Shown here piece by piece: positions 3,891-12,065 of a stretch of 64,000 bases of DNA. The notes beneath the pieces are model-generated. The model had not been told where the DNA came from. It saw only the letters and a program-made list of their open reading frames with translations, and made no database searches. The DNA is from Flintibacter muris (GTDB lineage: Bacteria; Bacillota; Clostridia; Oscillospirales; Oscillospiraceae). The stretch covers positions 1-64,000 of the forward strand of contig NZ_CALPCP010000015.1 in assembly GCF_943192995.1 (NCBI RefSeq), written 5' to 3'. The translations under genes and the position numbers were made by a program. Position 1 is the first letter of the stretch. Each line of letters begins with the position of its first letter.

Positions 3891-5072
3891 ATGGCAAAGC
3901 GCAGAGCCAGGGGAGAGGGGAGCCTCCGCAAGCGCGGTGATGGCCGCTGGAAGGGCCGGTACACCACCGGACGGGACCCGGAGACCGGGAAGCTGATCTA
4001 CCGTAACGTTCTGGCGAGGACGTAGACAGAGTGCAGGGCGAAACTCCGGGAAGCAATCAAAAACATGCGAATGGAGCCGGAAGAACTTCTGGCTGAGTCC
4101 GTCAAAGAACCGCCTCAGCCTGTCGTCAAGTATACGACAGGGGAGTGGCTCCGCACCTGGTTTGAGATGTACTCCAAGCCGAACCTCCGGGAGGCCACCC
4201 AGGATCAGTACACCAATTTTCTGGAAAAGCACCTGATCCCCAGTATCGGCGATGTCCCGCTGGAAAAACTGACCAGCCTTCGGATACAGAAGATGTATCA
4301 GGACCTGCGGACCAGTGGTTGCGTCGCTCAGAACAAGCGGGCCGGTACCGGACTGAGTCAAAAGACCGTCCGCAATATCCATATGATGTTCCACATCGCT
4401 CTGGACCAGGCTGTGAAGGAGGGCCTCCTAAACAAAAACCCCACCGACGGCTGTATCCCGCCGAAGGTGGAGAAAAAGGAGATGAAGGTCATCCAGCCGG
4501 AGCAGATCGGTGCCTATCTCCACGCTGCGGAAGAACACAACGTCCTGCCTATGTTCTACCTGGAGCTGACCAGCGGTCTGCGCAGGGGAGAACTTCTGGC
4601 TCTACTGTGGAACGACCTGGACCTGGAACAGCGCACTATTTCAGTGAGCAAATCCGTCTCGGGACGTCACGGAGAGCTGAAGGTTTCCGCTCCAAAAACG
4701 AAGTATTCCATCCGCAAGGTGGCCATCCCTCAACAGACGGTGGAACTGCTGTTCCGGGAACATGCGCTCCATCCTGACAGCCCGTACATGTTCCCGTCTC
4801 CAGTGACTGGGACCATGTACCACCCGGACACAGCAGGCCGTATCCACAAGAAGCTTTTGCAAGAATCCGGTATAGAAAGTGTTCGATTTCACGATCTGAG
4901 GCATACTTTCGCAACAGTTGCCCTGCAAAATGGAGTGGATATCAAGACGCTGTCCCAAATGTTGGGGCATTTTTCTTCTGGCTTTGCTCTGGACACCTAC
5001 ACTCACGTCACCGCAAAAATGCAGCAGGAGGCTGCAGAGAAGATGGGTAGTTTTATGGAGATGACGCTGTAA
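3891..5072 (+). pseudogene. int: Tyrosine integrase of Tn916/Tn1549 type, interrupted by an amber codon
   Basis: ATG 3891 follows AAGGAGGGG and begins an arm-binding domain (MAKRRARGEGSLRKRGDGRW). Codon 45 is TAG (4023-4025), where relatives usually have CAG (Gln); the same frame then runs open to 5072. The rest carries a SAM-like core-binding domain (EWLRTWFEMYSKPN) and the catalytic domain with Arg in TSGLRRGELLALL, the H-x-x-R box HDLRHTF, LGH and the tyrosine in DTYTHVT. All catalytic residues are present. Translation could restart near 4065 to give a protein lacking the arm-binding domain, or the TAG could be suppressed; otherwise the element can no longer move with its own enzyme. Confidence 0.8.
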
Positions 5073-5369: not shown

Positions 5370-5445
5370 GGTCCGAGTGGCGGGATTTGAACCCACGGCC
5401 TCTTGGACCCGAACCAAGCGCGATACCAAGCTTCGCCACACCCGG
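5369..5445 (-). tRNA. tRNA-Pro(CGG), CCA encoded
   Basis: Minus strand. Acceptor CCGGGTG pairs with CACTCGG (one G-U), the D-stem is GCGA/TCGC, the anticodon arm is CTTGG-TTCGGGT-CCAAG with anticodon CGG, and the T-arm is GTGGG-TTCAAAT-CCCGC. Discriminator A and CCA follow. The 3' end points to the integrase gene, and tRNA 3' ends are classic integration sites for tyrosine integrases, so the element probably inserted here. Confidence 0.9.
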
Positions 5446-10159: not shown

Positions 10160-10525
10160 ATGGAAAAACCCACTCAGCACAGTCTAACCTGGACGGTAGA
10201 CGACACTATGACTGCCAAGCGCATTGGAACGGCGGGATCAAAGATTCTGTCCACCCCCAACATGCTGGCCCTGATGGAGGCCTGTGCCCTGGAGCTGGCC
10301 CAGGAGTATCTGGACGAGGGGATGACCACCGTGGGCGCGGAGGCCCACGTCCGCCATCTGGCCCCCACCCCTGTGGGTATGAAGGTGACCGCCACCGCCA
10401 CCTTGCGGGAGATCGAGCGGCGGAAAATGTGGTTTGATATCCAGGTCCACGACGAGAAGGGCAAGTGCGGCGAGGGCTCCCATCTGAGAATCATGGTGCC
10501 CCAAAAAGACCGCAGTCAGGGTTAA
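10160..10525 (+). CDS. Hotdog-fold thioesterase, FlK-like
   Basis: 121 residues. The long hotdog helix can be read as STPNMLALMEACALELAQEYL, followed by the strands TTVGAEAHVRHLAPTPVGMKV and WFDIQVHDEKGKCGEGSHLRIMV. This resembles the fluoroacetyl-CoA thioesterase (FlK) group, whose members hydrolyse small acyl-CoA esters; FlK itself uses a Thr-Glu-His set, and T, E and H residues are present at comparable places (T in STPN, E in MEAC, H in EAHVRH). The physiological substrate cannot be read. Confidence 0.75.
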   Translation: MEKPTQHSLTWTVDDTMTAKRIGTAGSKILSTPNMLALMEACALELAQEYLDEGMTTVGAEAHVRHLAPTPVGMKVTATATLREIERRKMWFDIQVHDEKGKCGEGSHLRIMVPQKDRSQG

Positions 10526-10549: not shown

Positions 10550-10578
10550 TTGACAAACGAAATCACCTGTGGTAACAT
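10550..10578 (+). promoter_or_regulatory. Promoter of the oadB leader
   Basis: TTGACA (10550-10555), 17 bases, TAACAT (10573-10578). Transcription would start near 10585, just ahead of the riboswitch. Confidence 0.8.
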
Positions 10579-10587
10579 GCCCCATAC

Positions 10588-10725
10588 AACAAAGGGGAGT
10601 AGTCGGCGCGTCCTGACCGGCGCGCGGCACCAGTCAACAAGCATGTGCGGCCCATGGAGGCCGTTCTGGCTGTGCCTGAAATGACCAGACCTGCGTTCCG
10701 ACTGTTCGGGACGCAGGTCTTTTTT
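10588..10725 (+). promoter_or_regulatory. yybP-ykoY-type (Mn2+) riboswitch with terminator
   Basis: The leader begins AAAGGGGAGTAG, the hallmark 5' strand of yybP-ykoY aptamers. It has a middle helix (GGCAC with GTGCC) enclosing GTCAACA, and ends in CCAGACCTGCG, like the conserved AGACC of the family. That last segment is also the left arm of a terminator: AGACCTGCGTTCCG (10687-10700) pairs with CGGGACGCAGGTCT (10107+600 to 10720) and is followed by six T. Ligand binding that holds AGACC in the aptamer would prevent the terminator and switch expression on. Known members sense Mn2+; that this one does is inferred. A sodium-type switch is an alternative given the gene controlled. Confidence 0.7.
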
Positions 10726-10775
10726 GATAGATATTCTAAAACTGGAAAGGATAAAGAAAAAAGGAGTGCATGAAT

Positions 10776-11921
10776 ATGGATTTTTCCTTCCTCTGGCAAG
10801 GACTTCTGTCCATCACTTGGCAGCAGCTGGTTATGTATGTTATCGGCGGTCTGCTCATCTATCTGGCTATCGAAAAGGGCTTTGAGCCGGCCCTGCTGAT
10901 GCCCATGGGGTTTGGCGCCATTCTGGTAAATCTGCCTCTGTCCGGCGTCATCAACCAGTTCAGCGCCGGGATAGGGGAGACCCCAGGCATTATCCAGTGG
11001 CTTTTTGAAACGGGCATTGAGGCCAGTGAGGCCATGCCCCTGCTGCTTTTCATTGGTATTGGAGCCATGATTGACTTCGGCCCCCTGCTGGCCAACCCCA
11101 AGCTGTTCCTGTGCGGTGCGGCGGCTCAGGCGGGTATTTTCCTGACCATCATTATCGCCGTACTGCTGGGTTTTGACCTGAAGGACGCCGCTTCCATCGG
11201 AATCATCGGTGCCGCTGACGGTCCCACATCCCTGCTGGTGTCCCAGACCTTGAAATCCAACTACGTGGGCGCCATTGCGGTGGCCGCCTACTCCTATATG
11301 GCGCTGGTGCCCATCATCCAGCCTTTTGCCATCAAGTTGGTCACCACAAAAAACGACCGGGCTATGCGTATGCCTTACAGGCCCCAGGGGGTTACCCGGC
11401 GGATGCGTATTCTGTTCCCCATTGTGGTGACAGTTATCGCCGGACTGGTAGCTCCCGCTTCGGTGGCACTGGTGGGCTTTCTGATGTTCGGCAACCTGAT
11501 TCGGGAGTGCGGCGTATTGTCCACACTGTCCAACACAGCGCAGAATGACCTGGCCAACCTGATTACACTGCTGCTGGGCATCACCATCTCCTTCTCTATG
11601 AAGGCGGATCAGTTTGTCCGGTGGGAGACCTTTATGATTATGGCGCTGGGCCTGGTCGCCTTTGTGCTGGACTCCGTAGTGGGCGTACTCTTTGTCAAAG
11701 TTTTGAATATCTTTACACCCCACAACAAGATCAACCCCATGGTGGGAGCTGCGGGCATCTCGGCATTCCCTATGTCCTCACGGGTCATTGAGAAGCTGGG
11801 CCAGGAGGCCGATTCTCAAAATCACCTGCTCATGCATGCTATTGCCGCCAACGTATCCGGTCAGATCGCCTCGGTGGTGGCCGGCGGCGTGGTACTGCAA
11901 TACTTTGCCAACATAATCTGA
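10776..11921 (+). CDS. oadB: Sodium ion-translocating decarboxylase, beta subunit
   Basis: 381 residues, about nine to eleven membrane segments. ATG 10776 lies 9 bases after AAGGAG; an ATG at 10770 is too close. Family signatures are present: GIIGAADGPTSLLVSQTL (Asp148, the sodium-site region), LSNTAQNDLANLITLLLGITIS and the C-terminal NHLLMHAIAANVSGQIAS. In oxaloacetate, methylmalonyl-CoA and glutaconyl-CoA decarboxylases this subunit couples decarboxylation of carboxybiotin to sodium export. A gamma-like peptide follows, but no carboxyltransferase (alpha) or biotin carrier gene lies nearby, so the partners must be elsewhere. The leader carries a riboswitch. Confidence 0.9.
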   Translation: MDFSFLWQGLLSITWQQLVMYVIGGLLIYLAIEKGFEPALLMPMGFGAILVNLPLSGVINQFSAGIGETPGIIQWLFETGIEASEAMPLLLFIGIGAMIDFGPLLANPKLFLCGAAAQAGIFLTIIIAVLLGFDLKDAASIGIIGAADGPTSLLVSQTLKSNYVGAIAVAAYSYMALVPIIQPFAIKLVTTKNDRAMRMPYRPQGVTRRMRILFPIVVTVIAGLVAPASVALVGFLMFGNLIRECGVLSTLSNTAQNDLANLITLLLGITISFSMKADQFVRWETFMIMALGLVAFVLDSVVGVLFVKVLNIFTPHNKINPMVGAAGISAFPMSSRVIEKLGQEADSQNHLLMHAIAANVSGQIASVVAGGVVLQYFANII

Positions 11922-11939
11922 GTATAGGAGGGATAGAAT

Positions 11940-12065
11940 ATGAGCGAAAATCTAATCCAGGCCTTTGCGATGCTGGGACAGGGAATGCTGGGAATCTTCG
12001 TTGTATTGGGCATCATTGCGCTGTTAGTTGTTCTGATGCAGAAGTTTGGCGAAAAGAAGCAATGA
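11940..12065 (+). CDS. OadG-like gamma subunit, 41 residues
   Basis: A short gene 18 bases after oadB, with GGAGGG before the ATG. One membrane segment (about 18-33, LGIFVVLGIIALLVVL) and a basic tail MQKFGEKKQ are visible. This is the layout of minimal OadG/MmdD-type subunits, which stabilise the membrane complex. It is shorter than typical OadG (about 80 residues) and lacks the zinc-binding tail. Position and topology support the call; sequence identity alone would not. Confidence 0.65.
   Translation: MSENLIQAFAMLGQGMLGIFVVLGIIALLVVLMQKFGEKKQ

Follow-up and report, generated by a model that had tools for sequence, protein, structure and literature searches.

Manganese riboswitches of the yybP-ykoY class are the closest described systems for the RNA analysed here. 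In solved structures, phosphates and the N7 atom of a single invariant adenosine bind Mn2+; this adenosine is A48 in the X. oryzae RNA (ACA48UACU) and A41 in that of L. lactis (UCA41AUUC) (PMC6754395, PMC9190785). Docking around Mn2+ is reported to stabilise helix P1 and to favour antitermination (PMC6754395, PMC11087558). Helix P4 is not universal in the class: the S. pneumoniae mgtA riboswitch is a three-way junction, according to a review (PMC9495176). On the protein side, the closest system is the beta subunit of the Salmonella Na+-pumping decarboxylase. In the structural study of that pump, D203, S382 and N412 are the residues that bind Na+, effects on decarboxylation are reported to be severe for E40, moderate for R304 and N311, little for R258 and not severe for T148, and CitS, NhaP and ASBT are named as structural relatives (PMC7274780).

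The window, a stretch of 64,000 nucleotides, carries an oadB-type gene behind a structured leader (Table 1). A sequence-only reading of this DNA had described L1 and AGACC elements of yybP-ykoY, an AGACC strand shared with a perfect terminator, and oadB followed by a 41-residue gamma-like gene without alpha or biotin-carrier genes; all three were recovered. The promoter-like site means that the leader may have its own transcription start. Terminator-like sites numbered 0.3 on average in shuffled sequence, compared with the stem and T run found here. For oadB, the ATG at 10776 is the likelier true start, since many relatives begin the protein at ATGGATTT and this codon lies nine bases past AAGGAG. 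Neighbouring frames were scanned with Pfam and gave FlK, DUF6514, DUF4177 and DUF2344, none of which is an alpha or biotin-carrier gene. The FlK-family (fluoroacetyl-CoA thioesterase) gene lies directly upstream of the leader (10160-10525). Elsewhere in the window, an integrase-like frame (identified by eye) is located near a tRNA gene on the opposite strand (4065-5072 and 5372-5445); this pair possibly marks the edge of an integrated element.

Table 1. Features of the oadB locus in window coordinates, with the evidence for each.
Feature	Position	Strand	Evidence
Promoter-like site, TTGACA-17-TAACAT, TG before second hexamer	10550..10578	+	Consensus match; mean 0.4 in shuffles
Predicted Mn2+ riboswitch aptamer, three-way junction (P1, P2, P3; no P4)	10588..10699	+	R1, 93.6 bits, 1.5e-19 (leader is one of the 48 sequences that trained R1); covariation
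L1 5' strand GGGGAGUAG (GGGGAGTAG in DNA letters)	10594..10602	+	Faces 10683-10691 (GAC-C-AGACC)
AGACC element	10687-10691	+	Opens terminator stem
P2 hairpin	10606..10625	+	99.6% of cells paired; 4/5 counted pairs changed on both sides
P3 with predicted metal-binding loop L3 (GUCAACA, 10633-10639)	10626..10676	+	Alignment with solved structures
Putative switch strand: P1 3' side = part of terminator 5' arm	10690..10697	+	Strand overlap in sequence
Intrinsic terminator, 15 pairs (stem 10687-10720), then T run	10687..10725	+	Hairpin -27.2 kcal/mol
Orphan-type OadB	10770..11921	+	PF03977, 3e-145; clade 100/100
41-residue OadG-like single-helix gene	11940..12065	+	NF040909, 24.2 bits, cut-off 25

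For structural analysis of the leader, 80 oadB relatives (the best 80 of 368) were fetched from named genomes. Forty-eight oadB leaders, including that of the window, were aligned on a three-helix structure (alignment A1). 92.5% of the cells were paired and 16 of 24 pairs showed changes on both sides; the upper part of P3 was paired in just 75.3% of cells. The covariation score was 0.428 versus a shuffled mean of 0.215 and was reached in 0 of 500 shuffles, a test in which kinship alone can lift sequences above shuffles without structure. Slid versions of the structure scored 0.078-0.118, a control that favours the A1 structure because this was picked with the same sequences in view. A stronger sign of structure than either control comes from the numerous compensatory changes seen in P2 and P3. 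Folding of the leader gave a z-score of -4.24 for a stretch that includes the terminator.

A covariance model built from A1 (R1) gave matches of E 3e-8 or better at 74 of the 80 oadB loci. Since 47 of the 80 had served to train the model, 27 of the 74 matches are independent. The aptamer of one locus (L061) was found 660 bases upstream of oadB. Beyond the 74, L074 gave a weak match (18.6 bits, E 0.12), and among the 80 loci none was obtained at L042, L056 (a locus that starts inside the gene), L075, L076 and L078. The scanned set included one locus cut at a contig end (L046). By a fold-and-T-run rule, the terminator hairpin begins at AGAC in 71 of the 74 relatives; the other three have the hairpin with a weaker T run.

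At curated Rfam thresholds, a tRNA alone was reported in the whole window. The search with the yybP-ykoY model (RF00080) proposed in the sequence-only reading came near to the lack of a covariance match that it had named as counting against a riboswitch: under permissive limits, 10582-10752 scored 13.7 bits (E 0.097) and falls short of the gathering score of 45 bits, while R1, built from relatives, supports a riboswitch. A search of the window's own genome with RF00080 gave no match at E 0.001, and the model's threshold was reached at 0 of 16 related loci and at 0 of 20 R1-matched loci, exporter leaders included (best 36.6 bits). Assignment to the class rests on the relatives and not on the Rfam model, since the same aptamer type precedes mntP in the same genome. 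A further model, RF02617 ('Streptococcus sRNA 10'), gave sub-threshold matches to eight Mn2+ leaders (L103, L101, L084, L082, L089, L085, L097, L083), and may itself represent a three-way-junction Mn2+ riboswitch.

Of the features that mark yybP-ykoY members, the leader has the L1 motif facing AGACC, and its P1 switch helix appears exclusive with the terminator, as judged from the direct overlap of the strands. Genes of Mn2+ homeostasis were found behind related aptamers in the R1 scans. P4 of the four-helix solved members is absent from the leader alignment. In our own alignment with the solved structures, A10639, the last A of GUCAACA, corresponds to the Mn2+-contacting A48/A41. This position is invariant in 48 of 48 A1 leaders and in all 19 rows of a mixed alignment (A2) of four oadB leaders with 15 leaders of mntP, ATPase, CaCA and UPF0016 genes. 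GGGAGUA and AGA were likewise invariant in 19/19 A2 rows, and the other L3 letters nearly so. The top of P3 was unpaired as aligned in four of the 19 rows, all exporter leaders, which is ascribed to one-base shifts by the aligner. The leader is very probably a Mn2+ riboswitch of a three-way-junction subtype, a divergent form of the known kind.

The leader is proposed to act as a transcriptional Mn2+ ON switch. At low Mn2+, strand AGACCUGCGUU would pair with the downstream arm and the transcript would be terminated. With Mn2+ present, L1 and L3 would dock and P1 would keep the AGACCUGCGUU strand, allowing read-through into oadB and the gamma-like gene. Both genes would then be induced by Mn2+ and act in manganese homeostasis.

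For identification of genes behind the aptamer elsewhere, genomes were scanned with R1. The window's own genome gave two matches, the oadB leader (93.6 bits, a training sequence of the model) and C3:144-243 (69.5 bits); the latter precedes a 191-residue MntP (PF02659, 5.1e-51). Another species of the genus (G618) has matches before both mntP and oadB. In the class, 73 of 291 genomes contained 81 matches. The next gene, taken as the longest frame starting within 450 bases and checked with Pfam on one representative per family, was a P-type ATPase in 29 cases, MntP in 18, CaCA (Na_Ca_ex) in 13, OadB in 8, an ABC ATPase in 4 and TerC in 3; the remaining six comprised one CitMHS, one TetR, one unclear frame and three without an ORF in reach. 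With matches in this many genomes and 0 of 20 R1-matched loci above the Rfam threshold, the Rfam Mn2+ riboswitch model misses many three-way-junction members. The 29 ATPase matches correspond to 28 genes, one being preceded by tandem aptamers (L165; G008:C60:4833-4929 and 4977-5069).

In the phylum, matches were found in 54 of 299 genomes (59 rows). The 26 loci read carried 10 GDT1/UPF0016, 8 ATPase, 4 MntP and 3 CaCA genes and one unclear frame, with labels given by eye and GDT1 confirmed on one. OadB outside the class was found behind none of these 26 aptamers (28 of the 59 rows lie outside this reading). In the family, 52 of 120 genomes gave 59 rows; the 28 loci read carried 13 MntP (labels supported by PF02659 positions), 9 ATPase, 2 OadB, 1 CaCA, 1 CitMHS and 2 unclear genes. 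The other main gene families behind the aptamer are known or thought to export divalent metals. R1 thus recognises the Mn2+ riboswitch at large, the oadB leader being one form of it. Two genomes have a CitMHS-type transporter behind this type of aptamer (L149:616-1935, L245), and four have an ABC ATPase there; these genes may be further members of the Mn2+ regulon.

The link between oadB and the aptamer is not obligatory. Orphan-type OadB (60% identity or more) was present in 16 of 120 family genomes, half of which (8/16) have no R1 match, and some orphan-type oadB genes of the class also occur without the aptamer. The proposal that every orphan OadB has an aptamer was rejected on the family sample and on the tree described below, which needs nine gains or losses. 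Replacement of MntP by OadB was likewise not supported: among the 14 of 120 family genomes without PF02659, one (G664) has an orphan OadB of at least 60% identity.

The OadB of the window shares 42-52% identity with the decarboxylase-type sequences used for comparison and matches structure 6iva at 3.5e-92. In a tree of 75 rows, all 57 orphan-type sequences formed one clade (100/100, branch 1.39) and did not cluster with operonic decarboxylase beta subunits. The 39 aptamer-labelled rows (including the weak L074, L195 and L265) are confined to this clade and scattered within it, and R1 matched at 0 of 17 decarboxylase-type loci. For residue comparison, 92 orphan and 16 decarboxylase sequences were used (Salmonella numbering). 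The orphans have E134, I148, A201, M329, A378 and F384 in 92/92, S283, S387 and Q416 in 91/92, and A411 in 87/92. Of the positions changed in the orphans, R258 has little weight for decarboxylation in the pumps tested and T148 no severe one, a point against the exporter reading. CitS, NhaP and ASBT, the structural relatives named above, are carriers without an enzyme, which makes a stand-alone carrier plausible.

The 41-residue product scored just below the cut-off of the NCBIfam model 'OadG-related small transporter subunit' (NF040909). A short ORF (~40 residues) with a gamma-like helix, recognised by a motif derived from the family itself, was found after 87 of the 89 orphan genes whose flank was long enough, and after 0 of 16 decarboxylase-type genes. 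At ten loci (L034, L051, L054, L059, L061, L062, L064, L066, L068, L079), the small ORF has an N-terminal peptide like SIGIIGGADGPTAVFVTS ahead of its single helix; this peptide is similar to the tip of the OadB hairpin on which the Na+-site Asp sits. A similar peptide, EIGVIGGADGPTAIITAS, was seen in the window's own genome (L280; G000:C22:15996-16012) in a frame of 207 residues, where it separates two likely membrane helices; by eye, the start of this frame resembles an XRE-type DNA-binding domain. Linked alpha and biotin-carrier genes and a full gamma were not found at the window locus nor, as a rule, at orphan loci. In the exception (L271; G692:C13), a biotin-carrier frame immediately precedes an orphan-type oadB, which is itself followed by another oadB.

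Three options had been left by the sequence-only reading: control of a decarboxylase pump by the metal, a new transport role of the beta subunit, and sensing of another ion such as sodium. The new transport role fits best. The two genes most likely encode a two-subunit elevator-type carrier which would export Mn2+ (or another divalent ion) without a decarboxylase, perhaps, as a guess, in exchange for protons. The whole explanation, a Mn2+ ON switch in front of a Mn2+-exporting gene pair, is given a probability of roughly 0.6; for the transport role taken separately, a Mn2+-exporting two-subunit carrier is probable by a little over even odds. It is unlikely that the riboswitch senses Mn2+ while OadB remains a carrier of Na+ (or a Na+/H+ exchanger), being induced because Na+-driven Mn2+ efflux, or metal stress, needs a Na+ gradient. 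Na+ as cargo fits the retention of the site residues: D203, S382 and Y229 are present in all 92 orphans and 16 decarboxylase sequences, and N412 is too except for one gapped row (91/92 orphans). Against it stand the near-fixed changes around the site (A201, A378, F384, A411, Q416) and the known or presumed divalent-metal exporters that form the other main genes behind the aptamer.

Still less probable is control by Mn2+ of a decarboxylase Na+ pump, in which the orphan beta and short gamma would join alpha and biotin subunits made elsewhere, e.g. those of glutaconyl-CoA decarboxylase. Help in trans is possible, as a second full-length OadB (of any type) is present in 24 of the 25 genomes of aptamer-bearing oadB loci (counting L061 with its distant aptamer). 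The second copy of the window's own genome belongs to a separate operon that has two biotin-carrier genes (by eye and motif), frames resembling 2-hydroxyglutaryl-CoA dehydratase (by eye) and no aptamer. Moreover, E40, the residue most critical for decarboxylation, is kept in all 92 and 16 sequences, which counts against the Mn2+-exporter reading, and the L271 gene follows a biotin carrier. However, a beta subunit of its own is already present in this operon, an ORF with a biotin-carrier motif was found at 1 of 94 orphan versus 14 of 17 decarboxylase-type loci (flank lengths differ), R258 and R304 are kept in 2/92 and 23/92 orphans versus 16/16 for both in the decarboxylase type, and the gamma has just ~40 residues. 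Both the separation of the clades and the lack of partner genes weaken this option. Sensing of another ion (Ca2+ or Na+), with OadB as its exporter, is very unlikely because the leader of mntP in this genome, and those of other metal exporter families elsewhere, have nearly identical metal-loop letters. Its support is drawn from two papers: the mgtA three-way aptamer is reported to bind Ca2+ tighter, though Mn2+ activates more (PMC9495176), and Na+-I riboswitches control some oxaloacetate decarboxylase genes (PMC9337991). A Na+ riboswitch was rejected, as no Rfam family of this kind matched up to E 10. An Rfam score far under threshold would agree with a fold that arose by chance, or with a simple attenuator that has no metal aptamer; given the covariation, the conservation at 74 of 80 loci and the letters common to exporter leaders, the probability of this reading is negligible, and chance structure was discarded on the first two of these.

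The Mn2+-exporter reading suggests that the orphan OadB family helps to pump out manganese. On sequence evidence, it would make a family of orphan pump subunits part of the Mn2+ regulon in many Clostridia; it is the protein, not the RNA, that makes the locus of interest. Chances are about even that orphan OadB and its ~40-residue partner form a new Mn2+ exporter family, a pump subunit that parted from its enzyme and turned into a carrier of metal, controlled by the riboswitch that also serves MntP, P-type ATPases, CaCA, TerC and GDT1. If so, the short list of known bacterial Mn2+ exporters would gain a new family, seen in many Oscillospiraceae and Butyricicoccaceae records; the half of a decarboxylase pump that carries the ion would be reusable on its own, with a minimal gamma as its partner; and orphan 'OadB' genes would gain a testable role. 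No paper linking this riboswitch class to OadB was found in the literature searched; the likeliest gene surveys lie outside that coverage.

Compared with the solved yybP-ykoY members (RF00080; L. lactis, X. oryzae, E. coli), the leader is alike in the GGGGAGUAG/AGACC elements of L1, the L3 adenosine and the P1 shared with a terminator. It differs in its three-way instead of four-way junction (no P4), in its score (13.7 versus a cut-off of 45 bits) and in the OadB-type gene regulated. The S. pneumoniae mgtA Mn2+ riboswitch is also a three-way junction, reported to be activated by Mn2+ and to control a cation exporter; unlike the leader, it controls a P-type ATPase, and it is likened by description, not by letters (PMC9495176). 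Some members of the Na+-I riboswitch (DUF1646 motif) control oxaloacetate decarboxylase genes, and the leader had no match to it up to E 10. The OAD beta subunits of Na+ decarboxylases (PF03977, TIGR01109; PDB 6iva, 6iww) belong to the same family as orphan OadB, with D203, S382, N412, Y229 and E40 kept. The orphans differ from them as a separate clade with a short gamma, with alpha and biotin-carrier genes unlinked as a rule, with changes near the ion site and with R258 and R304 mostly replaced.
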